DNA of 64,000 bases from Pseudomonadota bacterium (GTDB lineage Bacteria; Pseudomonadota; Alphaproteobacteria; Caulobacterales; Caulobacteraceae). How positions within the stretch are numbered: position 1 is the stretch's first letter; each line of letters starts with the position of its first letter. This document shows positions 1,813 through 16,994 of this stretch, in pieces. The position numbers were made by a program, and so were the translations under genes. The notes below the pieces were generated by a model that worked only from the letters and a program-made list of their open reading frames with translations, was not told the origin of the DNA and ran no database searches. The stretch is from positions 1 through 64,000 of the forward strand of contig JAKBBV010000008.1 in the NCBI GenBank assembly GCA_021808285.1, given 5' to 3'.

Positions 1813-3107
1813 GCCCTCCCACGTCCGCCCCCCATCGCATCACGCCGCGCCAGGTCGCCGCCGCTGTCGCCGGCAATGCTCTCGAGTTCTACGACTTCAC
1901 GGTCTACGCCACTTTCGCCAGCCAGATTGGCGCCGCCTTCTTCCCCGCGAAGACGCCTTTCGTCAGCCTCATTCTGACCCTGGCTACATTTGGCGTGGGA
2001 TTTCTGCTCCGGCCGATGGGGGCCGTTATCATTGGCCGATTTGCCGACCGGCGCGGTCGGCGCGAAGCGATGATGTTGAGCTTCGCCATTATGGGGGTTT
2101 CGATCTTGGGCCTCGCCTTGACCCCTACCTATGCCCAGATCGGACCCGTCGCGCCGCTTCTGGTCCTGGTCTGGCGGCTCGGACAGGGCTTTGGGCTTGG
2201 CGGCGAGGTGGGCTCGACGACGGCCTTTCTGGTGGAGGCGGCGCCCATCGAGGCGCGGGGACTCTATGCGGCATGGCAGGGCGGGAGCCAGAATATCGCC
2301 AATTTGGTGGGCGCGGGTGTGGGTCTTCTCTTTACCACCTTCGCTGGCGCGGCGGCGCTGGAGGCGTGGGGCTGGCGAACCGCATTTCTGCTGGGCGCCC
2401 TGGCGCTGCCCTTCGGCCTACTTCTACGCCAAGCCCTGCCGGAGACCCTGCATCATCGCGAGGCGCCCACAAAATCCCAACCCCAGGCGACAACCTTGCG
2501 CGCCGGCGCGCCGGTTCTGGCCAAGGGCCTTGCTCTCGTCGCCTCCTCGACCGTCTCCACCTACGTTTTCGCCTATCTGACCACATACGCCATCAAGACG
2601 CTCCATATCCCGACAATAGCGGCACTAGGGGCGACGGCTGTGAGCGGGACATGCGGGCTTGTCGGAGGCCTCGCGGGAGGGGTCCTGGCCGACCGACTGG
2701 GCCGCCGAACGATGATGATCTGGCCGAGGCTCGTGTTTCTGCTGGCGACATGGCCGGTGTTCTGGGTGATCGTCGACAGGCACGATGCCCCAAGCCTGCT
2801 CATCGGCACAGCCATCCTGACCTTCTCCAGCGCCCTTTCGACCTCGGCGGTATTCGTAGGTCTGGCCGAGTCCCTGCGTAAGGAAGTAAGGGTAGTGGGC
2901 CTTGGGACGGTCTATGCCCTTGCCGTGGCGGTCTTCGGCGGCACGACCCAGCCGATCATCGCCACCTTGGTGCATGTGACGGGCGATCCGCTTTCGGTGG
3001 CCTGGTACACCGTTGCTGCGACCCTGATCGGTCTGATCGCCTCTTTGACGATGCAAGAGACCCTGCCCAGACCTGAGACCATAGAGGCGGTCATTCCCAC
3101 CGTCTGA
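1809..3107 (+). CDS. MFS transporter (metabolite:H+ symporter-like)
   Basis: GNALEFYDFTVYATFASQIGAAFFP and GRFADRRGRREAMM motifs; GTG start at 1809 overlapping the upstream stop (GTGA) is preferred over the ORF-track start at 1491. Confidence 0.9.
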   Translation: MSPPTSAPHRITPRQVAAAVAGNALEFYDFTVYATFASQIGAAFFPAKTPFVSLILTLATFGVGFLLRPMGAVIIGRFADRRGRREAMMLSFAIMGVSILGLALTPTYAQIGPVAPLLVLVWRLGQGFGLGGEVGSTTAFLVEAAPIEARGLYAAWQGGSQNIANLVGAGVGLLFTTFAGAAALEAWGWRTAFLLGALALPFGLLLRQALPETLHHREAPTKSQPQATTLRAGAPVLAKGLALVASSTVSTYVFAYLTTYAIKTLHIPTIAALGATAVSGTCGLVGGLAGGVLADRLGRRTMMIWPRLVFLLATWPVFWVIVDRHDAPSLLIGTAILTFSSALSTSAVFVGLAESLRKEVRVVGLGTVYALAVAVFGGTTQPIIATLVHVTGDPLSVAWYTVAATLIGLIASLTMQETLPRPETIEAVIPTV

Positions 3108-4326
3108 AGGCTAGGCTCGCGTTAAGGCCGCCGAAGGCGAAGGCGTTGACGAGGGCGGCCTCGGCGAAAATGTCTCGAGGCTCGCCCAGAACCAGATCCA
3201 GATCGCATTCCGGATCGCGGCCGAGATGATTGAGGATCGGCGGCGCCTTGCCTGATCGCAGGGCTTCTAGGGCCAACACGGCTTGGAGCGCGGCGGTGGC
3301 CCCGATGAGATGACCGTGGGCGCTCTTGGTGGCGATGATCGGCGTGTCAACGACAGCATCGCCCAGAACGGCGTGAAGCGCGGCCGCTTCGTTCCTGTCA
3401 TTGAGCAGCGTTCCGGTGCCATGGGTCGAGACCAGTAGCCGGGCTTTGGGACCTAGGTCGGCGGCGGCTAACGCAGCGGTCATGGCAGAGACTGCGCCCT
3501 CGAGGCTGGGCTGGGTCCAGTGGAAGGCATCAGAGGAAAGCCCGACGCCGGCGCACTCCGCCAGGATCGCCGCTCCGCGCGCCCTCGCGTGCTCGAGCTC
3601 CTCGAGGACGAGCACCGCCCCGCCCTCGCCGATGGCCATGCCATCGCGGCCGGCGGAAAATGGCCGGCAGGCCGTCGGGCTCATGGCCTGAAGACCGTCC
3701 CAGGCCTTCAGGCAGCCAGGCGTGGCGATCGCTTCGCTGCCGCCAACCACGGCAAGGTCACAGGCACCTGTGGCGATGAAGCCCGCGCCTTGGGCGATGG
3801 CGTGGCCCGATGAGGCGCAGGCGCTAGACACTGCGAACACCGGACCGCGGATACCGAAAGACATCGCCACTGCGCTGGCCGGGGCGCTGACCATCACCTT
3901 GGGAACCGTTAGCGGATGCATGCGCGCCGACTTGCGTCCGAAATAACGCAAATAGCTCGCTTCAAGCGTGTGGATACCGGCGAAGCCGTGGCCGAGCACC
4001 AGGGCTGTTCGCCTCTCCAGCGCGGCGTGCCCGATCAAGCCGGCCTGGGCCAGGGCCTCTTGCGCCGAAGCCAGGGCGAAGAGGGCGAAGGGGTCGAGCG
4101 AAGCCCCGATGCGGCGCCCCAGCGCCGTCTCGAGGGGCGCCACCAAATCTCCCTCCACCAAAGCAGCGGGCATCTCGTAGGCTTCAGGCCCCTCCGGTCC
4201 CGGATCGAAGCTGCGCCTCCGTATCGCCCCCTCGCCAGCCAGGGCGGCGGCGAAATTGGCTTTGACATCAGCGCCAAGGCCCGAGACCGCCCCAAGTCCC
4301 GTGACCACGATCCGACGGCGGACCAT
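3091..4326 (-). CDS. Beta-ketoacyl-ACP synthase (FabF-like KAS)
   Basis: Cys in SSACASSG, His in STHGTGT and His in KSAHGHLIGATAA, all three catalytic residues present. Confidence 0.9.
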   Translation of the reverse strand: MVRRRIVVTGLGAVSGLGADVKANFAAALAGEGAIRRRSFDPGPEGPEAYEMPAALVEGDLVAPLETALGRRIGASLDPFALFALASAQEALAQAGLIGHAALERRTALVLGHGFAGIHTLEASYLRYFGRKSARMHPLTVPKVMVSAPASAVAMSFGIRGPVFAVSSACASSGHAIAQGAGFIATGACDLAVVGGSEAIATPGCLKAWDGLQAMSPTACRPFSAGRDGMAIGEGGAVLVLEELEHARARGAAILAECAGVGLSSDAFHWTQPSLEGAVSAMTAALAAADLGPKARLLVSTHGTGTLLNDRNEAAALHAVLGDAVVDTPIIATKSAHGHLIGATAALQAVLALEALRSGKAPPILNHLGRDPECDLDLVLGEPRDIFAEAALVNAFAFGGLNASLAFRRWE

Positions 4327-4330
4327 CAGG

Positions 4331-4579
4331 TCAGGCGGCCTTTCCGGTCGCGATGACGTCCTCGATGCTGGCGAGAAAGCCTTCCAGATCGGTCACATCG
4401 CGCAACGCATCCTCAGCGATCTCGATGCCGTATCTCTCCTCAACGGCGAAAACGACGCTGACAACACCGACCGAGTCCAGGCCCACATCCGTGAGGGTCG
4501 CCTGAGGCGTCAGCTTGGCGCGATCCACCAGCGCCTCATCGGCGATGAGATCCAGGAGTTCGTCGCGCAAGGCCGTCAT
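4331..4579 (-). CDS. Acyl carrier protein
   Basis: 82 aa with phosphopantetheine site VGLDSVGVVSVVF; 4 nt upstream of the KAS gene. Confidence 0.9.
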   Translation of the reverse strand: MTALRDELLDLIADEALVDRAKLTPQATLTDVGLDSVGVVSVVFAVEERYGIEIAEDALRDVTDLEGFLASIEDVIATGKAA

Positions 4580-4665: not shown

Positions 4666-6048
4666 CTACCTCGGAAGATATTTTCTCAATACGTCCTCAA
4701 TGATGCGCTCCAACGACTCCAGCGTGTTGCAGGTGCGGGCCACAGTGCAGAATCGGCCATAGGCGTCCATCTTCGAGTCCCCCTGGCCCCAATAGGTCTG
4801 AGGCTCCGGATTGAGCCAGATCACCGATCGCGCGCGATCGGCGATCGCCCGAAGGATATCCAGTCGCGGCTCCGCGTAGTTGGTTCGGCCGTCGCCAAGG
4901 ATGATCAGGGTGGTCCGCCGATCGATCTTGGCCCCATGCAACTCGAATACATCGGCGAAGGCGCGCCCATAGTCAGTGGAGCGAAAGCCCACCCGGTCGA
5001 GAATCAGGGCGATGGCGTCGTCCACGGACTCCTCGCGCAGGACATCACTTACGGCAACGGCGTGATCGGAAAAGGCGAAGGCGTCGAGACGCTCCACCAC
5101 CTCATTCAGACAATGGAGGAACAGCAGCAGGAACTGAGCAGCCTGGGCTACCGAGCGCGACACGTCGCACATCACCGCAATTTTGGGCTTCTCCACAGCC
5201 CTGGTGCGCCAGACGATCTCAAAAGGTATGCCGCCATAGCCCAGGCTGCGCCGCAGGGTATGGCGCACATCCAAGCGGCCCAGTCGCGCCCGACGTCGCC
5301 GCCGGGCATATTTTGAGGCCAGCTTGCGGGCCATTCGCCGCACCAGAGTCTCCATGGCCCTGATGTCCTCGGGCTCTACGGCCGTCAGGGCCTTGCGCGC
5401 CAGGACCTGCTCTCGCATCCGGCGGGCGGACTGGGCGGCGAACAGTCCCGCCTGGCGCTCAATGAAGGCGCCGGCGCGGGCGAAGAGGCGTTCACGCTGT
5501 CCGGCCAACGACTCAGCCTGGATCCGATCGGCGAGGCTTTCGGAGCCTCGTCCGGCGGCGATGCGCGCCTCCAAGGACCGCAAGCCCAAGTCGTCGAGCA
5601 GGCGCCGTGTCATCAGACTCCGTTGGCTCTGCAGCCGAATCTCGCCGGCGCCGATGCGCGCGGCGGAAGCTTCCATGGCTGCCGCCAAAGCAGCCTCGTC
5701 GCCAGCCTCCAGACTTGCCTCAAGGTCGAAGGCGGCGCTTGGGCCACCCATCTCGTCCCGACCCGCCTCCTGCGGGGGGCCATGCGCCAAGTCGAAAGCA
5801 TCGCGCGCATAGTAGAGATCGAAACAGGTCTCGAAGCGCTCTACCTCCTCGGCCGACTTGGCCAGAGTCACGCAAAAGGCGTCGCGCAGCAGCGTACGGC
5901 TGGAGAAACCGATTTGGGCGAGGGCGCGATGGGCGTCGATCGCCTCCGCTGGCGAGACCGCGACATCGTGGGCGCGCAGGGCCCTGAGGAAGCCCTCCAG
6001 TCCGTCCTGCATGGGGGTCGCCATCCCACCAGAAGCTGGATCCGGCAA
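4666..6048 (-). CDS. VWA domain-containing CoxE-like protein
   Basis: VMCDVSRSVAQAAQFLLLFLH (MIDAS-like DxSxS) and adjacency to a MoxR ATPase. Confidence 0.85.
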   Translation of the reverse strand: MPDPASGGMATPMQDGLEGFLRALRAHDVAVSPAEAIDAHRALAQIGFSSRTLLRDAFCVTLAKSAEEVERFETCFDLYYARDAFDLAHGPPQEAGRDEMGGPSAAFDLEASLEAGDEAALAAAMEASAARIGAGEIRLQSQRSLMTRRLLDDLGLRSLEARIAAGRGSESLADRIQAESLAGQRERLFARAGAFIERQAGLFAAQSARRMREQVLARKALTAVEPEDIRAMETLVRRMARKLASKYARRRRRARLGRLDVRHTLRRSLGYGGIPFEIVWRTRAVEKPKIAVMCDVSRSVAQAAQFLLLFLHCLNEVVERLDAFAFSDHAVAVSDVLREESVDDAIALILDRVGFRSTDYGRAFADVFELHGAKIDRRTTLIILGDGRTNYAEPRLDILRAIADRARSVIWLNPEPQTYWGQGDSKMDAYGRFCTVARTCNTLESLERIIEDVLRKYLPR

Positions 6049-6051
6049 GGC

Positions 6052-7017
6052 TCAGGCCCCAGAGGTCAGAAGGTCGCCGATCTGCGGCTCGACAGCGGCG
6101 ATGTCGGCCTCGAACTTGAGAAGGACGTTGAGCGTATCCCGCACGACCACCGCGTCCAGCGCCTGGACGTGCAGCAGAATCAGGGCTCGGGCCCAGTCCA
6201 CGGTCTCGGAGATTGATGGGAGCTTGCGCAGGTCTCGGCTCCGCAGTTCCTGAACGAAGGACACTAACTGGCGCCGCAGCGCCGCCTCAACCTCAGGCAC
6301 GCGCGTCGCAACAATGCGCTCCTCCAGCGCCTGGTCAGGCAGCGGAATGTGAAGGTGCAGACAACGTCGCTTGAGGGCGTCGCCCAGATCCCGGACATTG
6401 TTGGAGGTGAGGAAGACCACGGGCGGCGTTTTGGCCCGAATCACGCCCAGTTCCGGAATCGATACCTGAAACGCCGACAGCGTCTCCAGCAGGAAGGCCT
6501 CGAAGGCCTCATCGCTCTTGTCGATCTCGTCGATCAGCAGGACCGCCCCGCCCGGCTGACGCAGCGCCGTGAGCAGCGGACGCGGCTCAAGAAACGGTTC
6601 GGAAAAAAACAGATCGCCAGCGCCATGCAGCCCCTCCATTGCGGCGCCGAGGTCCGGCGCGTCGGCCAGGGCTCGGCCCATATGGTCTTTGAGAATCTGG
6701 GTGTAGAGGAGCTGTTTGCCGTACTTCCACTCGTATAGCGCCTTGGACTCGTCCAGGCCCTCGTAGCACTGCATGCGGATGAGCGGCAGGCCCAGGAGGC
6801 CTGCGGAGGCGATCGCCAGCTCAGTCTTGCCCACGCCAGCCGGGCCCTCAACCAGGATTGGCTTACCCAGGTTCAGGGCCATGAATAGGGCCGTGGCGAT
6901 CCGCCGTGAGGCGATATAGCCCACACCGGCCAGACCCGCGATCAGACTTTCGACACTATCACGCGCTTCGCCGGCCGCCAGTACGGCGGGATCCAGGGTG
7001 CTGTCTTCGGGCGCCAT
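6052..7017 (-). CDS. MoxR-family AAA+ ATPase
   Basis: Walker A GPAGVGKTEL, Walker B VLLIDEIDKSD, sensor VVFLTSNNVRDL. Confidence 0.9.
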   Translation of the reverse strand: MAPEDSTLDPAVLAAGEARDSVESLIAGLAGVGYIASRRIATALFMALNLGKPILVEGPAGVGKTELAIASAGLLGLPLIRMQCYEGLDESKALYEWKYGKQLLYTQILKDHMGRALADAPDLGAAMEGLHGAGDLFFSEPFLEPRPLLTALRQPGGAVLLIDEIDKSDEAFEAFLLETLSAFQVSIPELGVIRAKTPPVVFLTSNNVRDLGDALKRRCLHLHIPLPDQALEERIVATRVPEVEAALRRQLVSFVQELRSRDLRKLPSISETVDWARALILLHVQALDAVVVRDTLNVLLKFEADIAAVEPQIGDLLTSGA

Positions 7018-7085: not shown

Positions 7086-8213
7086 TCAGCCCAACTCTTT
7101 GCGATAGATTCGGTAGGTCTTGTAGATGCGGGCGTCGAGGCCCTCGAGAATGTGCCGCATGGCGTGGTTGTCCTCGAGAATCCAGGAATACTCCGCCTGG
7201 CGCAGGCCTCGTTTTACCGCCTCGCGACGGACGGCATCGCTCAGGAAGAACGGCGCCATCATACCGCGACGATCCCGGGCGAACTTCTTGCGCACGCCCA
7301 TCAACGGCACCCGGGCGCGGCTCGGCCCCTTGACCTTAAGCCGCCACAATAGCTTGGCCCAGCCGAATGGCAGGATCTTGCCGTTCAGGTCATGGATAGC
7401 CTCGTTGATGTCCGGCAGCATGACGATGAAGCCAGCCGGCTCGCCATCGATCTCATAGAACCAGATCCAGTCCGGGATCAGGATCAGTTTCAGCGATTCG
7501 CCCAGATGCTTGGTCTCGGCCTCCGTCAGGGAGAGCCCCCCCCAGTTCTCAGACCAGGCGTCATTGACGATGTCAGCGAGGATTTTCACCTCTTCATCGA
7601 ACCGGTTCATCCGTACCCGGCGGAGAGCCGCACCGGCTGGCAAACCCCGGGCGAGGCGCCGCTCAACGCCTTCGCTGAAGCGGAAATTATGGGCGTTGAT
7701 ATAGGCGTAGACGTCCTTGGCCTTGGCGTAACCCAACTCCTGCAGGCGGCGCTCGGTCCAGCGCGGATCATGTCCCATCATCACCATCGGCGGGGTGTCG
7801 AACCCCTCGACCAGCAGACCCACCTCCTCGCTGGTGGCGAGGTTGAACGGCCCCATGGCGGCCTTGAACCCTCTCTGGCGCAGCCAGTCCTCCGCCACCT
7901 GGAACAAGGCCGCAAATACCTCGGGGTCGTCCTCAGCCGCGATCATGCCGAAATAGCCAGCGTCGGGATCAGTCTTGGCCAGATGATCCACCTGAGCGCT
8001 GATGCGGCCGACATCACGCCCATCCTTCCGCGCCAGCCAGAACTGATAGTCGGCGTGCTGAAAGAACGGATTGACCTTCGGCGAAAGCGCCTCACGGCGC
8101 TCGAACATCAAAGGGGCGATGTAGTTGGGCTCCCGGGCCATGAGCCGCATCGGAACCCGGATAAACCGCTCAAGTTCGGCCTTGGTGGAGACAGGAACAA
8201 TGTCGACGGCCAT
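7086..8213 (-). CDS. GNAT-like acyltransferase, candidate bacterial ceramide synthase
   Basis: 375 aa GNAT-like protein of the type encoded in Caulobacter sphingolipid loci; 5 nt downstream of the LptFG fusion in an operon with serine palmitoyltransferase. Confidence 0.7.
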   Translation of the reverse strand: MAVDIVPVSTKAELERFIRVPMRLMAREPNYIAPLMFERREALSPKVNPFFQHADYQFWLARKDGRDVGRISAQVDHLAKTDPDAGYFGMIAAEDDPEVFAALFQVAEDWLRQRGFKAAMGPFNLATSEEVGLLVEGFDTPPMVMMGHDPRWTERRLQELGYAKAKDVYAYINAHNFRFSEGVERRLARGLPAGAALRRVRMNRFDEEVKILADIVNDAWSENWGGLSLTEAETKHLGESLKLILIPDWIWFYEIDGEPAGFIVMLPDINEAIHDLNGKILPFGWAKLLWRLKVKGPSRARVPLMGVRKKFARDRRGMMAPFFLSDAVRREAVKRGLRQAEYSWILEDNHAMRHILEGLDARIYKTYRIYRKELG

Positions 8214-8218
8214 GCGGG

Positions 8219-10528
8219 CTACCCTTCGGCGTAGAGGAGGAGACTGGCGGCGCCGGCCGCAAAAGCAATAGGAGCGCCCCAGGCGGCGACACCCGGCGGC
8301 ACCACCCCGGTGGAGCCCATGGAAGTGAGCACGCCGTCGACCACGAGATAGAGAAGGCCGCAGCCAAGCGCGAAGATGATCGGTCCGGTGCGATTGCTCC
8401 GGGCATGTCCCAGCGCCGTGGGAAGGGCGAGCAGCAGCATGATCAGCGGCGCCATCCCCTCTGCCAGGGTGCGGTAGAGCTTGGTCTCGAATTCGCTTGG
8501 GGGCTTGTCGATGGCCCCCTTGCCGAACAGCGAGCGCAGCGCCGTCCAGGACGTAATCTCATATCCGGTTGAGAACGGATTGGCGGCGTTAAAGAGGCGC
8601 GATACGTCACCTGGACGCAGCGTCGTTCGCCAGTCCGCCGCGGCCACGGCGATGGCCGTTGCGCGCACCGCACCGACATCGGTGATGAGGGCATCGTGGA
8701 GGATCCAGCCCTTTCCCGTCCAGTCCGCCTCCTCTGCCCGGACGCGCCGCTCAAGACTGTGCTGAGCGTCGCGATCATAGATGGTCAGCCCCCGCAGCCG
8801 GCGTCCGTCAGCGCTCGCCGCCGTCGCCTTGACGATATCATCGTCGATCCGAAACCAGCGCGGCGCCCCCGGATCTGGACGCGCACCTGGCGTGGTCGCC
8901 TTCCACCATGTGGCCAGCGCCTGCTCGGCGCGGGGGGCGATCTGGTCGGTCACCGCCATGTCGAGCGCCGCGACAGCGAGGGCCACGGGCAAGGTTCGCC
9001 GAAAGATCTCGAAGAGGGACAGCCCCGAGATCCGCATCACCACGAGTTCACTGTTACGGGCCAACTGGCTGAACGTGAAGACCGCTCCCGCCAGGACCGC
9101 GAACGGCGCCACCTCCTGCACCATGGAGGGCGTCCGAAGGAGCATGTAGCGACCGATATCGAGGAGGCCCCCGCGCTGAAGAATCTGACTGGTCTCGCCC
9201 AGCAGGTCGATCAGTTGAAGCAATGCGATGAGCGCGATCCCGGCGCCCAGCGTCCGCACCGCCATCATCCGGGTGAGGTAGGCGGAAAGGCTCAAGGGAC
9301 CCTTCAAATTCACGGTCGTCACAGCCCTGGGACGGCGCTCCATCAGGGTCTCGATACGACGCAGCAGGCCGGAGATCGGGGTATCCCCCGGTCGGGTTCG
9401 GCTCGAAAGAAAGAGCCAAAAAGCGAGAACCGTAATGCTCAGAAATGCGAGGCCGATCGAGACGAAGGGGTTGATCGCCCCCTCGTCGGAGAAGCTTTTG
9501 GCCAGGGTGACGCTGTGGTGGTAGGCCACCAGAATAATGGCTCCAACGATCATCCCCGCGGTGCGATTGCCGCGCTTGGACGCCATCGCGAGCGGGAGGG
9601 CGATGAGCGGGAGGAGCGGGATCGCCAACGACCTCGCCAACCGCGCGCAGAGCTCAGCCTCGAGCACCCGGCGGGGGATCAGCGCATCGGGCCGCTGAGC
9701 CTCATCGATGAGCTCAGGAAATGTCAGCTCCTGCTCGTTGCCGCCGCGTGGTCGGAGCGTGGCGCCTCCCTTGATCAGTTCCCGGTCCGTGAGATTGCCA
9801 AAACGCAGTAACTTCGGCGCTGCATCGCCCTGTTCGGATAAGATGAGGCCACCGCGAAGTCGCAGCTCGGTGGTCTTGCGATCGGGAGCCATTCCGAGGG
9901 CGCCCTCCGAGGCGGTAACCACCTGTTCGCCTTCACCGTCCTTGCGGCTGATGAAAACCCCGCTCAATTGACGACCCGTAGCGTCCACTTCGTCGGCGGA
10001 TATCGTGAACTGGGGGCCGGCATTGATGAAGACCTGCGGATCGAGACGCGCGGTCCATCCCGCCTCCGTGGCTGCATTGAGGACGGCGCGATATCCGAAC
10101 CGGCTGTAAGGCTGCAAATAGCCCATGAGCAGGAGGTTGCCGACACCCAGAACGAGGCCGGCGAAAACCAGGGGCGCGAGAAGGCGATCGAACGATACGC
10201 CGCCCGCCAGACAGGCATCGATCTGGCTTTCCTCGTCCAGGCGCCCGATGACCATGAACATGGCCACGAAATAGGCGGCGGGCAGCGCCAGGCCCAGCTG
10301 ATAGGGAATCATATTGCCCACCAGCCCAACCAGATAGCTCATGTGGGCGCCGTTGGCGGCCAGCTGATCAATCAGCCTGAGCGTCTGCTCCAGCAAAAAC
10401 GCCACCAGGGTCACGCCAAGCACGGCCAGAGCCGGCAAGGTCAGCATCCGCAGGATGTAGCGGTCGAGTATAGAGGGACGCCAGGGGGGCCGAGGCGCCG
10501 CCGCGGCGCTAAGCGCCAGGGAGGTCAC
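8219..10528 (-). CDS. LptF-LptG (YjgP/YjgQ) fusion permease
   Basis: 769 aa; two successive LptF/G-type units, each three TM helices + large soluble domain + three TM helices; first unit begins ILDRYILRMLTLPALAVLGVTLVAFL, second begins around LSAYLTRMMAVRTLGAGIALIALLQLIDLLGE. Confidence 0.88.
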   Translation of the reverse strand: MTSLALSAAAAPRPPWRPSILDRYILRMLTLPALAVLGVTLVAFLLEQTLRLIDQLAANGAHMSYLVGLVGNMIPYQLGLALPAAYFVAMFMVIGRLDEESQIDACLAGGVSFDRLLAPLVFAGLVLGVGNLLLMGYLQPYSRFGYRAVLNAATEAGWTARLDPQVFINAGPQFTISADEVDATGRQLSGVFISRKDGEGEQVVTASEGALGMAPDRKTTELRLRGGLILSEQGDAAPKLLRFGNLTDRELIKGGATLRPRGGNEQELTFPELIDEAQRPDALIPRRVLEAELCARLARSLAIPLLPLIALPLAMASKRGNRTAGMIVGAIILVAYHHSVTLAKSFSDEGAINPFVSIGLAFLSITVLAFWLFLSSRTRPGDTPISGLLRRIETLMERRPRAVTTVNLKGPLSLSAYLTRMMAVRTLGAGIALIALLQLIDLLGETSQILQRGGLLDIGRYMLLRTPSMVQEVAPFAVLAGAVFTFSQLARNSELVVMRISGLSLFEIFRRTLPVALAVAALDMAVTDQIAPRAEQALATWWKATTPGARPDPGAPRWFRIDDDIVKATAASADGRRLRGLTIYDRDAQHSLERRVRAEEADWTGKGWILHDALITDVGAVRATAIAVAAADWRTTLRPGDVSRLFNAANPFSTGYEITSWTALRSLFGKGAIDKPPSEFETKLYRTLAEGMAPLIMLLLALPTALGHARSNRTGPIIFALGCGLLYLVVDGVLTSMGSTGVVPPGVAAWGAPIAFAAGAASLLLYAEG

Positions 10529-10534
10529 GAGAGT

Positions 10535-11758
10535 CTAGACCGCCCCTGCAATGCGGCGACGGCCCGACGGCAGGAAGCCCAAGGTACGGCCGACCTCGGC
10601 GAAAACGCTCAAGACGGTGTCAATTTGCGCCAGGGTGTGAGCGGCGCTGACGCTGCTGCGCAGAAGTCTCACATTGGTTGGGGTCGCCGGGGGTAGAGCC
10701 AGATTGAGATAGACCCCTCCCTCAAGCAGGAGCTTCCAAAACATCACTGCCGTTTCCTGATCAGGCATGGCGACCGCGACGATGGGATTGGCCTCCGGGC
10801 CGACCTCGAAGCCCATGGCCTTGAGCCCATCATAAAGCCGGTGTGCATTGCGCATGAGCGTCTCACGCAAGGACGGCTCCGCCTGAAGTTTCTCCAATGC
10901 CGCCAAGGTCGAGGCGACAATGCCAGGCGGCAGGGATGCGGTGAACATGTAGGGGCGCGACACGATGCGCATGATGTCGAAATCGGGTGTGTCGGACACA
11001 CAGAAGCCGCCGACGCTGCCCAGACTCTTGGAGAACGTCCCGACGATGAAGTCGACATCCGCCTCGACGTCCGCCGCCTCGGCCAGCCCCCTGCCGGTCT
11101 CGCCTAGAACGCCCATGGAATGGGCCTCGTCCACCAGGAGGTAGGCGCCGGTCTCGCGCTTCACCGCCGCGATCTCCTTGAGCGGCGCCGTGTCGCCCAG
11201 CATAGAATAGATCCCCTCCACGACGATCAACCGATCGCCGGGCGCGCCTTCGAGGCGTCTGAGCCGCTTGTAGAGGTCGTCTGGATTGTTGTGACGGAAC
11301 CTGATCACTTCTGCGTGACCAAGGCGCGAGCCGTCGTATATGCTGGCGTGACTATCGGCATCGAGCATCAGGTGGTCGCCGCGTCCCACAAGAGTCGACA
11401 GTACGCCGAGATTAGCCTGATAGCCGGTGCTGAAGACCATGGCGTTCTGTCGCCCGAAGAACTTGGCCAGAGCCTCTTCAAGCCGCTTGTGGCCGCCATA
11501 GGTTCCATTGGCGACCCGTGAGCCCGTGGTTCCGGTGCCTTGGCCTCGGGTCGCCTCGATGGCGCGATCGACACAGTCTGGGTCGAACGTCAGACCCAGA
11601 TAGTTGTTCGTGCCAAGCAGAATCATTGCCTGACCGCCTATCACACCCTCTGTGGGCGAGGTGACGGCGTCGAATCGGACGTTCAGAGGGTCCACGCCAC
11701 TGGCGCGAAGTTGGTCATAGGCCTGCTTATAGGCCCCGTGCTTGGCGAGGATGGTCAT
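10535..11758 (-). CDS. spt: Serine palmitoyltransferase (alpha-oxoamine synthase)
   Basis: NNYLGLTFDP, GTGTTGSRVANGTYGGHKRLEEALAKFFG, LVDEAHSMGVLGETGRG and PLP-lysine GTFSKSLGSVGGF; paired with a dedicated ACP. Confidence 0.9.
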   Translation of the reverse strand: MTILAKHGAYKQAYDQLRASGVDPLNVRFDAVTSPTEGVIGGQAMILLGTNNYLGLTFDPDCVDRAIEATRGQGTGTTGSRVANGTYGGHKRLEEALAKFFGRQNAMVFSTGYQANLGVLSTLVGRGDHLMLDADSHASIYDGSRLGHAEVIRFRHNNPDDLYKRLRRLEGAPGDRLIVVEGIYSMLGDTAPLKEIAAVKRETGAYLLVDEAHSMGVLGETGRGLAEAADVEADVDFIVGTFSKSLGSVGGFCVSDTPDFDIMRIVSRPYMFTASLPPGIVASTLAALEKLQAEPSLRETLMRNAHRLYDGLKAMGFEVGPEANPIVAVAMPDQETAVMFWKLLLEGGVYLNLALPPATPTNVRLLRSSVSAAHTLAQIDTVLSVFAEVGRTLGFLPSGRRRIAGAV

Positions 11759-12051
11759 GCGACGCGCCCAGACCGAAGGGCTTCGACAGCGGCGATAAGG
11801 TCAGCCACGGTCTGGATCTGTGCGATCCGGTCGAGCGGAATCGAAATGTCGTAGAAATCTTCGATGGCCATGACGAAATTCATCACCCCAAGTGAGTCCA
11901 TGCCCAAATCCTCCACGATGTCGGTATCGTCCCGGATAGATACGGGGCGACCCAGAACCTCCTCGAAGATCGTGGAGATTTCGTTTCGGATGGCGGCATT
12001 GGCGTCAGCGTCGGTGCCGCCGACCACAGCCAGTTGCAAATTCTGCCGCAT
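11755..12051 (-). CDS. Acyl carrier protein of the sphingolipid locus
   Basis: DLGMDSLGVMNFVMAIEDFYDISIP; overlaps spt start by ATGA. Confidence 0.9.
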   Translation of the reverse strand: MRQNLQLAVVGGTDADANAAIRNEISTIFEEVLGRPVSIRDDTDIVEDLGMDSLGVMNFVMAIEDFYDISIPLDRIAQIQTVADLIAAVEALRSGRVA

Positions 12052-12286: not shown

Positions 12287-13222
12287 TCAGAGCCATCCCT
12301 TGAGACGGTACCATGCCGCGGTTTCCGTAAAGCCCTGATCCAGCGAACGACCCATCGGCCCGGATCGCCAAGGCGCCATCTCAGAGGGGGAAACCGCCCA
12401 ATCGGGATGGGTGAGTTCTCGCGCCTTGCCCGCGCCAAAAATGGCTGGCCGGCCGGTCAGTCGGGACGCCAGGTCCGCGATCCCCCCCGCCGCGTGGATC
12501 AGGCTGACGGGCAAGGGCATCAGGGGCGCATTTCGATTGAACGCGCTGCGAGCCGTCCGCCAGATCTCCCGCCAGCCATAACCCTGGGGCCTGTGTCCCC
12601 CCAAGGCGAAGCGGCCATCCTCGTCTCGCCGCGCCGCCTCAGCGATCTCCGCGGCCACATCGTCAACGTGAGCCAGGGCGAGGCGCGTCGTCGGCGCACC
12701 GGGGTAGGGCAGGATTGGCGCGTGGGCGGCGAGTTGGAACAATCCAAGCGTCGCGCGATCGCCCGGCCCGTAGACGGCGGGGGGTCGAATTATGGTCAAG
12801 GACCCTCCCAGAACCTCCCGTGCGGCGAGCTCGCCCGCGTGCTTGCTGAAGGCATAGGAAGAGAGTTGCGGCTGGCGGGCAGCCAGGCTGGAGACGAGAA
12901 CGAATCTCGCCCCGACGGCCTTAGCCGCCCGCGCGGCCGCTGCGGCGCCCGCCTCGTTCACGGCTAGAAATCCGGCACGGTCACGGGCCATGATCGCTCC
13001 CGCCAAATGCACGAAGACCTGAGCGCCGGCGGCGAGGCGGGCCAGGGCCCCAGCATCGGCGAGGTCGCCGAGAACCCATTCCAGGTCATCCTTGCGCGCC
13101 TCACCCTCAATCGGCGGACGGCGCGCCAGAGCTCTCAGGCTCCAACCCTGCGCAAGAAGATGCGGAGCGAGCCGTTGCCCCAGAAACCCCGTCGCACCCG
13201 TAAGGGCTATGAGGCCGGCCAT
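12287..13222 (-). CDS. NAD(P)-dependent epimerase/dehydratase-family protein, candidate ceramide reductase
   Basis: N-terminal Rossmann TGATGFLGQRLAPHLL, SSYAFSKHAGE (YxxxK); sits in the sphingolipid locus. Confidence 0.85.
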   Translation of the reverse strand: MAGLIALTGATGFLGQRLAPHLLAQGWSLRALARRPPIEGEARKDDLEWVLGDLADAGALARLAAGAQVFVHLAGAIMARDRAGFLAVNEAGAAAAARAAKAVGARFVLVSSLAARQPQLSSYAFSKHAGELAAREVLGGSLTIIRPPAVYGPGDRATLGLFQLAAHAPILPYPGAPTTRLALAHVDDVAAEIAEAARRDEDGRFALGGHRPQGYGWREIWRTARSAFNRNAPLMPLPVSLIHAAGGIADLASRLTGRPAIFGAGKARELTHPDWAVSPSEMAPWRSGPMGRSLDQGFTETAAWYRLKGWL

Positions 13223-13243: not shown

Positions 13244-14974
13244 TCAGGCCTGGACGCGCTCAGTGGCCGGGGCGAAAGCGCCCGACATAAAGAGGGCGCG
13301 CGCCCGCGATCGACTCAGTTTGCCGGAGGACGTCTGGGGCAGGCTGTGAGGAGGAGCCAGAACCACCTGAATCTCCAACCCATGGCGGGCGCGTAGGAGG
13401 CCGGCGACCTCTTTTTCCAGAGACATCCGGGCCGAAGCCTCCCGAGTCCGACACTGGACCAGGGCCACAACCCGCTCATCACTACCCCCCTCGGCGTAAG
13501 AGAACACCGCCACGTCTCCCGATCGAAGCCCCTCGATTTCGCGCTCCGCAGTCCATTCCAAATCCTGCGGCCAGACGTTGCGGCCATTGACGATGATCAG
13601 GTCCTTGGCGCGACCTGTGATCACGATCTCGCCATCCAGGAGGTAGCCCAGATCGCCGGTATCCAGCCACCCATCGGCGGAAAGGGTTCTGGCGGTTTCG
13701 TCGGGCGCACCGAAATAGGCCTTCATCAAGCTCGGGCCGCGCGCGAAGATTCGGCCGACCTGCCGCTCGCCCAGGACGCGACCGGCCAGGTCGCGCACCT
13801 CAAGCTCATGATCCTTTAGAGGTCGACCGCAGAGGGCGAACTCGCGCTGTCGCCGGCCCTCGCCCAAAGGATGAGCTGCCACGGCCTCGGCTTCGAGACG
13901 GTCCATATCCGCCACGTCCGTGCGCAGCCCCTTCCCCACCGGGGTGAGTGACAGGGCCAGGGTCGCTTCAGCCATGCCGTAGCTCGCGGTGAAGGCCGCC
14001 GCGTTGAAGCCCGCCGGCGCATAGGCGTCAGCGAATGACCGCAGCGGTTCAGGGCGGATCATGTCACCGCCGAGCCCCGCCACACGCCAGGACGAAAGGT
14101 CGAGCTCTGTTAGGTTCGCGGCTCCCGCCCGCCGCGCGGCGAGGTCGAAGCCGAAGGTGGGTGCGTAGGAAATCGTTCCCTTGCGCTGTGAAATGAGGTC
14201 GAGCCACAGCAGGGGCCGACGAACGAAGGCGCCTGTGGGAAGGAGATCGACCGAGACCTGGAAGCCAACGCTGCAAAGGAGCATCCCGACCAGACCCATA
14301 TCGTGATAGAGCGGCAGCCAGCTTACGGTCCGGTCGGTGGCGGCGACCCCGAGCCCCGGACCGCCGATCGCATAGACATTGGCCATGAGCGCGGCTTGGG
14401 TGACGGCGACGCCCATGGGGAACCGGGTGCTTCCAGACGAGAACTGCAGATAACAAAGCCCCTGCGGGTCTGGCCGAGGGAGCGGCCCAGCGCCGGCGCG
14501 GGGCAGATCGTCCAGACGCCCACAGATCGCGAGATCGAGACCGTTGGCGGCTTCGTTGAACCAGTCCGCGAGCGCACCGGGCGCCAAGGCCGCCCGCGCC
14601 TCGGCCGAGACGAGCATACGCCTTACATGTTCGAGATAGGCGTCTTTGCCGCCGAAAGGCGCCGGCAGTGGGGTCGGCGCGGGAACGAGGCCAGCAAATT
14701 GGCAGGCGAAAAAAGCGCGCAGGAAATCACCGTCGCTTTCCGCAGCCAACATGACCCGGTCGCCCGGCTCTAAGCCAGTCGCTAGAAGGCGCCCCGCGAG
14801 GTCCAGCGCCTGATCGCGAAGGTCCCGATAGGGCAGGACTTCAATGAGCTCTCCCTTGAGGGAATGCACATTGATCCCAGTGCTCTGAAGCGCCGCGTAG
14901 TCGAGGGCCTCGGCAAGAGTCGCGAAATCGCCTTTGCGGACGGAGCGTCCGGGCGCGGTCGGTGTCGGAGTCAA
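13244..14974 (-). CDS. Fatty acyl-AMP ligase / acyl-ACP synthetase
   Basis: LQFSSGSTRFPMGV (AMP-binding), WLPLYHDMGLVGM, GWLDTGDLGYLLDGEIVITGRAKDLIIVNGRN. Confidence 0.9.
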   Translation of the reverse strand: MTPTPTAPGRSVRKGDFATLAEALDYAALQSTGINVHSLKGELIEVLPYRDLRDQALDLAGRLLATGLEPGDRVMLAAESDGDFLRAFFACQFAGLVPAPTPLPAPFGGKDAYLEHVRRMLVSAEARAALAPGALADWFNEAANGLDLAICGRLDDLPRAGAGPLPRPDPQGLCYLQFSSGSTRFPMGVAVTQAALMANVYAIGGPGLGVAATDRTVSWLPLYHDMGLVGMLLCSVGFQVSVDLLPTGAFVRRPLLWLDLISQRKGTISYAPTFGFDLAARRAGAANLTELDLSSWRVAGLGGDMIRPEPLRSFADAYAPAGFNAAAFTASYGMAEATLALSLTPVGKGLRTDVADMDRLEAEAVAAHPLGEGRRQREFALCGRPLKDHELEVRDLAGRVLGERQVGRIFARGPSLMKAYFGAPDETARTLSADGWLDTGDLGYLLDGEIVITGRAKDLIIVNGRNVWPQDLEWTAEREIEGLRSGDVAVFSYAEGGSDERVVALVQCRTREASARMSLEKEVAGLLRARHGLEIQVVLAPPHSLPQTSSGKLSRSRARALFMSGAFAPATERVQA

Positions 14975-15152: not shown

Positions 15153-16994
15153 ATGAACGACACCTCCACCGCCGGCCCAGACCGACCCAGTCTCGGAGCC
15201 CTGATGAAGGAGGAACTCCTTCACGACGCGCTCAAGCACCCTCCAGCTGGCGACCTGCAGCCTCTCACCCGCCTCGCGCCTTTCGTGGGAGCTCACCCCG
15301 TGGACGCCATCCTTGGGATGGTCTTCCTCACGCTGTCCTCGGCCTCCGCCCTCGCCATGACCGATGGCGTCCGACGGGTGATCGACGGCGGCTTCACCCA
15401 CCGCACCGAAGGCGAACTCGTCCAGCTCTTCATGACCGCCGGCGTGATCGCCGTCGTCCTGGCCCTGTCGACCGGAATGAGGATGTACTTCCTCTACAAG
15501 CTGGGAGAGCGGGTCGTCGTCGACCTTCGCAAGGTCGTGTTCCGGCGCGTACTCGGCCTCGACCTGGCGCATTTCCAGAAGCTCAAGACGGGAGAGATCC
15601 TGTCCCGCCTGACCACCGACATGACGATGGTCGAGGGCATCGTCGGGACCGTGGCGCCGGTGGCGCTGCGCAATCTCATGACGCTGGTGGGCGCACTGGG
15701 ATGGATGCTGATCGTCAGTCCCAATTTCACCGGCCTGGTCCTGGCCCTGATTCCCTTTCTGCTCACGCCGCTGTTCCTCATGGGCCGGCGCCTGCAGCGC
15801 CTTTCCCTGCGCGCTCAGGATCGCTTCGCCGAGGCCGTGGGGTATGCCGGGGAGGGCCTGGGAGCGGTCGATACGGTTCAGGCCTTCGGACAGGAGGACG
15901 CCGTCGCCGCGCGTTTCAACCGCTCGGTGGAAAGCGCCTTCGAAGCCTCCCGGGCACAGCTCAAGGCGCGCGGTCTACTGTCCGCCCTGATGATCACCCT
16001 GATCTTTGGCGGCATGATCGCGCTCCTGTTCCAGTCGACGGTGGCCGTTGTGCATCACCGGCTGTCGCCAGGGCGCCTCGTCCAGCTCCTGGCCCTTGCC
16101 TTCTTCGCCGCCAACGCCGTGCGTGATCTTTCCGATGTCTGGGGGCAGATCCAGAAGGCGTCGGGCGCTGCGGCGCGGGTTATCGAGATGCTGGATGCCC
16201 GTCCGACCATCGCCGCGCCCGCCAAAGCCACCCCGTTGCCGCGACCCGCTTTGGGGGAGGTGGATTTCGACAGGGTGCGTTTTGCCTATCCCGGACGTCG
16301 GGGACCGCCGGCGCTGGATGAATTCGATCTGCACGTCCGTCCAGGAGAACGGGTGGCGTTGGTGGGGCCATCCGGCGCCGGCAAGAGCACTGTTCTCCGC
16401 CTACTGCTGCGTTTCTACGATCCGGAACGGGGCGCCGTGCGTCTGGACGGGGTCGATCTGAGAGAGGCGGACCCCTCAGAGGTGCGTGAGCGCTTGGCTC
16501 TCGTTGCTCAGGATGCGCCGCTGTTCTCCGGTTCGGCGAATGACAATATTCGATTTGGCTCGCCAGAGGCGAGCTTGAGCGAGATCCGCGCGGCGGCGCT
16601 GGCGGCCCAGGCGGATGGTTTTCTCAAGGCCCTGCCGCAAGGCTACGAGACCCTTGTGGGAGAGCATGCCAAGACCCTTTCAGGTGGGCAAAAGCAGCGG
16701 CTCGCGATCGCCAGAGCGCTGCTGCGGGACTCGCCGGTCCTGCTGCTGGATGAGGCCACCAGCGCCCTCGACGCAGAGAGTGAGCGGCTGGTCCAGCAGG
16801 CTTTGCATGAAGCCATGCGCAATCGCACCACTCTGGTCATCGCCCACCGACTCGCGACCGTTCTTGAAGCCGACCGCATCGTGGTTATGGAGCGCGGACG
16901 CGTCGTCGAGGAGGGCGCCCATGGCCAGCTGCTGGCAAAGGGGGGCTTGTATGCCCGGCTAGCCAAGTTGCAATTCACGGCTCAGACCGCGTAA
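15153..16994 (+). CDS. MsbA-like ABC transporter, fused membrane and ATPase domains
   Basis: Walker A GPSGAGKST, signature LSGGQKQR, Walker B VLLLDEATSALD, six N-terminal TM segments. Confidence 0.92.
   Translation: MNDTSTAGPDRPSLGALMKEELLHDALKHPPAGDLQPLTRLAPFVGAHPVDAILGMVFLTLSSASALAMTDGVRRVIDGGFTHRTEGELVQLFMTAGVIAVVLALSTGMRMYFLYKLGERVVVDLRKVVFRRVLGLDLAHFQKLKTGEILSRLTTDMTMVEGIVGTVAPVALRNLMTLVGALGWMLIVSPNFTGLVLALIPFLLTPLFLMGRRLQRLSLRAQDRFAEAVGYAGEGLGAVDTVQAFGQEDAVAARFNRSVESAFEASRAQLKARGLLSALMITLIFGGMIALLFQSTVAVVHHRLSPGRLVQLLALAFFAANAVRDLSDVWGQIQKASGAAARVIEMLDARPTIAAPAKATPLPRPALGEVDFDRVRFAYPGRRGPPALDEFDLHVRPGERVALVGPSGAGKSTVLRLLLRFYDPERGAVRLDGVDLREADPSEVRERLALVAQDAPLFSGSANDNIRFGSPEASLSEIRAAALAAQADGFLKALPQGYETLVGEHAKTLSGGQKQRLAIARALLRDSPVLLLDEATSALDAESERLVQQALHEAMRNRTTLVIAHRLATVLEADRIVVMERGRVVEEGAHGQLLAKGGLYARLAKLQFTAQTA

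Follow-up and report, generated by a model that had tools for sequence, protein, structure and literature searches.

A fused LptF2-LptG2 gene in a ceramide operon of uncultured Caulobacteraceae, a candidate for a sphingolipid exporter

The ceramide operon and its fused permease gene

The stretch of DNA analyzed here (64,000 nucleotides, referred to below as the window) contains a ceramide operon with the following features.

4666..6048, minus strand: VWA/CoxE-like protein, 3' of the MoxR ATPase, kept in the genus (Pfam/NCBIfam, synteny)
6052..7017, minus strand: MoxR-type AAA ATPase, 3' of bCerS, kept in the genus (Pfam/NCBIfam, synteny)
7086..8213, minus strand: candidate bacterial ceramide synthase, bCerS (place and identity to relatives; without a Pfam match)
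8219..10528, minus strand: lptFG2, LptF2-LptG2 fusion in one ORF, 769 aa (PF03739 twice, TIGR04407, TIGR04408); LptF2 half at residues 20-374, linker at about 379-413, LptG2 half at 414-765
10535..11758, minus strand: serine palmitoyltransferase, spt (NF047599, 675 bits, cut-off 500)
11755..12051, minus strand: acyl carrier protein (ACP) of the ceramide operon, acpR-like (PF00550; syntenic in relatives)
12287..13222, minus strand: NAD-dependent epimerase/reductase, ceramide reductase (CerR)-like (PF01370; syntenic)
13244..14974, minus strand: fatty acyl-AMP ligase, aasR-like (NF006624, 814 bits)
15153..16994, plus strand: MsbA-like ABC exporter, candidate inner-membrane flippase (TIGR02204, 765 bits, just under the cut-off of 780)

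On the minus strand the genes are read in the order fatty acyl-AMP ligase, CerR-like reductase, ACP, Spt, lptFG2, bCerS, MoxR ATPase and VWA protein. The gene of the MsbA-like ABC protein is divergent from the operon, a position that it also occupies in those loci of the genus that have enough flanking sequence. The bCerS candidate shows 56-63% identity to the ORF located directly 3' of lptG2 in other Caulobacteraceae genera, and in Caulobacter the same place, after CC_1155, is taken by cerS (CC_1154) (PMC11324152). The MoxR ATPase and the VWA protein (4666-7017), which follow bCerS across the genus, resemble MadB and MadC at scores below the curated cut-offs. Beyond the VWA gene lie a second ACP gene (4331-4579) and a ketoacyl synthase gene (3091-4326), which recur in some loci of the genus and may together produce an unusual acyl chain.

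LptF and LptG normally pair to pull lipopolysaccharide (LPS) out of the inner membrane. The lptFG2 gene holds both in one uninterrupted ORF of 769 codons, running on the minus strand from 10528 (GTG) to 8219 (TAG); the GTG start agrees with the aligned ATG starts of relatives. An earlier sequence-only reading of this DNA had placed the ORF and its two LptF/LptG units correctly, without giving the strand. Pfam and NCBIfam scans of the protein returned LptF and LptG models only. PF03739 was matched twice (E 4.3e-131; 437.6 bits in all, against a cut-off of 27.9), each time over the full-length unit of six helices and a beta domain, which places the protein in the LptF/LptG permease family. Residues 20-374 matched the LptF model TIGR04407 (267 bits, cut-off 230) and residues 414-765 the LptG model TIGR04408 (296 bits, cut-off 240).

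The predicted secondary structure (three helices, a beta domain and three helices, twice over) bore out the topology read earlier from the sequence, namely three transmembrane segments, a soluble domain and three further segments in each unit. The AlphaFold2 model is weak (mean pLDDT 60.4) and supports topology and family only; the predicted structure has a low-confidence linker at 397-411, and the 24 PDB matches of the model at E <= 0.001 are, without exception, chains of LptF or LptG. The two short intergenic gaps noted previously were also confirmed, with 6 nt separating the spt stop codon from lptFG2 and 5 nt separating lptFG2 from the ATG of bCerS.

Conservation and origin of the fusion

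The same uninterrupted fused ORF is present in 14 of the 16 genomes of the genus (that of the window included), at 58-100% identity, which rules out an assembly error or a chance ORF. The genus consists of uncultured Caulobacteraceae; the named records are all metagenome-assembled, and 13 of 14 are labelled Caulobacteraceae. In every locus of the genus where the contig reaches, lptFG2 lies between spt and bCerS. The gap of 3-6 nt after spt is kept at most of the loci, and the neighbourhood FAAL-CerR-ACP-Spt-LptFG-bCerS-MoxR-VWA recurs across the genus with some gaps. The fusion is absent from two of the 16 genomes, G005 (71% complete, with a partial Spt) and G009, the only near-complete genome of the genus without it, which is also without Spt above the cut-off.

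A second fused LptFG-like ORF was observed in genome G007 (L069:7908-10478; up to 856 aa, 36-37% identity to the window protein). It adjoins a CAAX-protease-like gene, and no sphingolipid genes were seen on the stretch examined.

A phylogeny of both halves, as called for by the sequence-only reading, was constructed from 94 rows. The N-terminal half clusters with split LptF2 proteins (100/98) and the C-terminal half with split LptG2 proteins (99/95), both apart from canonical LptF and LptG. These clades, shared with the LptF2 and LptG2 of other genera, and the adjacency to spt and a ceramide synthase gene assign lptFG2 to the LptF2/LptG2 group. In two groups of other Caulobacteraceae genera (g4 and g5) there are two split genes, which overlap by 4 nt and are followed by bCerS, and in an alignment the linker of the fused protein matches the tail of LptF2 (the RPGDTP segment included), which runs on into the head of LptG2.

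In two g4 genomes an additional LptF2-like gene lacks an adjacent LptG partner (G057, L067:8002-9192; G131, L068:7881-9074); MsbA-like matches were found near this gene in G131.

Another fused gene (792 aa) was identified in a different family of the order (genome G043), beside genes of ACP, Spt and bCerS. A single origin of all fusions was rejected for the N-terminal halves (AU test, p 8e-34), a value to be read with caution given the long branches of G043. The AU test covered the N-terminal halves; the C-terminal halves of the two fused lineages also fall apart in the tree. Judged from these comparisons, the LptF2-LptG2 fusion has at least two origins, each within a ceramide cluster.

Housekeeping Lpt genes and possible coupling to LptB

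Searching the genome of the window for this family revealed four LptF/LptG units: the two halves of lptFG2 and, on another contig, a separate pair in which lptF is followed by lptG and then by lptD. The ORFs after lptD are presumably surA and ksgA, names assigned by visual inspection of the sequence and from the familiar order of these genes. The sequence-only reading had held that, without a second pair, the fused gene would have to be the housekeeping permease; the canonical pair beside lptD shows that it is not, and a second lptF/lptG pair is also present in the relatives examined.

One lptC was found on another contig, beside an lptA-like ORF and lptB. Among the 33 ABC ATPase matches in the genome, only this lptB passed the LptB cut-off, so that the housekeeping LptB is the simplest candidate for the partner of lptFG2. 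Neither a dedicated LptB2 nor an LptC2 was found in the window's genome, and only one LptD was detected. The LptB of this genome can be aligned over its whole length with LptB chains of solved structure, the groove segment SIFR included.

Coupling of the permeases to LptB involves two glutamates of the coupling helices, LptF-E84 and LptG-E88, described as strictly conserved by Simpson et al. 2016 (PMC5082905). Both are present in all canonical copies that we examined. All fused copies of the genus retain the equivalent of LptG-E88 (E494). At the position of LptF-E84, the window protein has Gln102 and its two closest relatives also have Gln; the other 12 fused copies have Glu. The split LptG2 proteins of the g4 and g5 genera (L059-L065) have Ala at the E88 position in seven out of seven cases, and their LptF2 keeps Glu. 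Each of these LptF2/LptG2 lineages has therefore retained at least one of the two glutamates, which leads us to infer a possibly asymmetric coupling to LptB. Given E494 and the alignment of the genome's LptB, coupling of lptFG2 to LptB is plausible; the Gln at the E84 position might make it weaker in this genome.

Two readings of lptFG2 can be weighed against these data. It is scarcely credible that the gene encodes the housekeeping LPS permease, fused and moved beside the ceramide genes by chance: the protein passes both NCBIfam equivalog cut-offs (LptF and LptG), but a complete canonical lptF-lptG pair adjoins lptD in the same genome, the relatives examined have a second pair as well, and the fusion lies, with strong support, outside the canonical clades. 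This reading was rejected on the grounds of the second pair and the tree, which likewise set lptFG2 apart from the canonical LPS exporter LptB2FG. The loss of one coupling glutamate in several lineages could mean low ATPase activity, as might befit a retrograde or regulatory permease (e.g. a sensor of ceramide level) instead of an extractor. We consider such a role very improbable, since the two halves, each with its beta domain, are conserved and E. coli mutants with a single E84A or E88A substitution remain viable, with outer-membrane permeability defects (PMC5082905).

Cargo, proposed route and comparison with known systems

The distribution of LptF2 was compared with that of Spt in 120 genomes of the order, of which 32 have LptF2 (E < 1e-30) and 36 have Spt (above the cut-off). 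Spt is present in 31 of the 32 LptF2 genomes, and LptF2 in one of the 84 genomes without Spt (Fisher p 2e-22, ignoring relatedness). Five of the 36 Spt genomes gave no LptF2 match at E < 1e-30; sphingolipid export may therefore not always need LptF2. Phylogeny, synteny and co-occurrence with Spt tie lptFG2 to sphingolipids. In Caulobacter, CC_1156, CC_1155 and CC_1168 were described by Olea-Ozuna et al. 2024 as a second LptF, LptG and LptC, respectively, with the proposal that they move phosphosphingolipids outward; mutants of CC_1156 and CC_1168 were tied to sphingolipid genes by cofitness (PMC11324152).

The g4 and g5 genera have, in the roughly 5 kb that separates spt from lptF2, genes at the places of CC_1161-CC_1157, a cpg-type block that is absent from the ceramide cluster of the fused genus. 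CpgB and CpgC were recognized from their syntenic position in this interval, and CpgB also from a GGDGT kinase-like motif. Profiles of the genes in these positions found nothing convincing in 13 genomes of the genus (the window's included) or in G043; two short kinase-like matches were obtained (E 6e-6 and 5e-4, in G015 and G002), and in two g4 Caulobacteraceae controls the same profiles gave E below 1e-115. LptC2, which lies near the cluster in g4 genomes, was not detected in the fused genus, and the g5 genera are also without a detectable LptC2; like those of CpgB and CpgC, these absences come from homology searches of draft genomes. The window's genome thus lacks detectable counterparts of the CpgB/CpgC and LptC2 that accompany LptF2/LptG2 in Caulobacter, an accompaniment that does not strictly define the group.

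LptF2/LptG2 is retained where the known phosphosphingolipid route appears to be missing, an observation that favours ceramide or another derivative as the cargo. Since no convincing CpgB/CpgC homologues were found in either fused lineage, CPG or CPG2 is probably not transported, and ceramide, or ceramide with another head group, is the more likely cargo. Transport of CPG/CPG2 exactly as suggested for Caulobacter crescentus has in its favour the proposal in the literature (PMC11324152) and orthology with the split LptF2/LptG2, but we regard it as unlikely because homologues of CpgB (ceramide kinase) and CpgC were missing from the searches of the window's genome, 12 other genomes of the genus and G043. 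Export of some other lipid made by the neighbouring acyl enzymes, or of a minor LPS or glycolipid variant, is also quite improbable. Synteny and co-occurrence could fit a permease for a lipid made with the same acyl enzymes, and the ACP and ketoacyl synthase pair just past the VWA gene (4579-3091) recurs in some loci of the genus. However, this pair was not seen beside lptF2/lptG2 in other genera, where Spt and bCerS were, and LptF2 co-occurs with Spt.

We therefore consider it probable that lptFG2 is a fused LptF2-LptG2, providing both transmembrane halves of an Lpt-type ABC extractor dedicated to sphingolipids; the cargo, ATPase partner, bridge, direction, flippase and transport itself are what we infer for it. 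According to Uchendu et al. 2024, no flippase or lipid transporter had been identified for bacterial sphingolipids, and in Caulobacter Spt and bCerS are cytoplasmic and CerR is periplasmic (PMC11087976), a distribution that requires both a flippase and an extractor. In the proposed route, the sphingolipid would be made by Spt and the ceramide synthase at the cytoplasmic face, moved across the inner membrane by a flippase, for which the divergent MsbA-like ABC protein is a candidate, and reduced by CerR in the periplasm. LptFG2, powered by the housekeeping LptB, would then extract it from the inner membrane and pass it on to a bridge, probably the housekeeping LptC-A-D.

The sequence-only reading had likewise proposed a dedicated extractor of ceramide or its derivatives that uses LptB or another ATPase. 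What stands is that the protein is not the housekeeping permease, that phylogeny, synteny and Spt tie it to sphingolipids, and that a single ATPase of the genome passes the LptB cut-off; the idea itself, however, had appeared in print in 2024 for the split paralogues of Caulobacter (PMC11324152). A point against a dedicated extractor is that, with no LptB2 or LptC2 found and one LptD, the separation of its cargo from LPS is left unexplained. More tentatively, a single-chain Lpt extractor may have evolved at least twice for a sphingolipid other than CPG/CPG2, perhaps bare or differently decorated ceramide, acting via the housekeeping LptB and LptC-A-D; in some lineages one half would then account for most of its coupling to LptB.

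LptFG2 is a strong candidate for a bacterial sphingolipid exporter. For the route of bacterial sphingolipids to the outer membrane, it offers, together with the MsbA-like protein, a compact set of candidates. Because the fused lineages separate LptF2/LptG2 from phosphosphingolipid synthesis, the cargo can be tested with one gene. With LptF and LptG joined by nature in one chain, the protein also lends itself to structural work and to the question of which half couples to LptB.

With the LptB2FG extractor of LPS, lptFG2 shares the fold, the two half permeases, the coupling helices and the presumed LptB partner; it differs in being fused, not linked to lptD, placed in a different clade and presumably dedicated to sphingolipid. 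The LPS-contacting LptG K34 is Gln in lptFG2, which is not diagnostic, as canonical LptG of these bacteria also lacks this Lys; for the same reason the LPS-phosphate-contacting lysines are uninformative as a test of cargo. The phospholipid ABC transporter MlaFEDB also moves lipids between the inner and outer membranes, but it belongs to a different permease family, whereas lptFG2 matched only LptF/LptG models.

In a g4 cluster, the gene before that of the acyl-AMP ligase (L121:3182-4561) stands in place of CC_1166 (a potential flippase). It is without a match in Pfam and shows no similarity to the window's MsbA-like protein, which suggests that the flippase may have been replaced.

The general idea that LptF2/LptG2 move sphingolipids is not new, having been proposed by Olea-Ozuna et al. 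2024 (PMC11324152). No LptF-LptG fusion was reported in the literature searched (open-licence papers only), and, as far as searched, the fusion, its recurrence, its separation from the CPG genes and the loss of one coupling glutamate in LptF2/LptG2 lineages are new. Like LptF2/LptG2 of C. crescentus (CC_1156/CC_1155; PMC11324152), lptFG2 is a second LptF/LptG pair beside spt and cerS with the ceramide synthase directly after it, and in the tree its halves group with the split pairs from related genera. In contrast to the C. crescentus pair, it is a single chain, detected without CpgB/CpgC homologues or LptC2. The clusters also differ in that the fused genus has the divergent MsbA-like ABC protein where related genera with split genes have an unrelated putative flippase, and lptFG2 keeps the LptG coupling glutamate that is replaced by Ala in the split LptG2 copies sampled.
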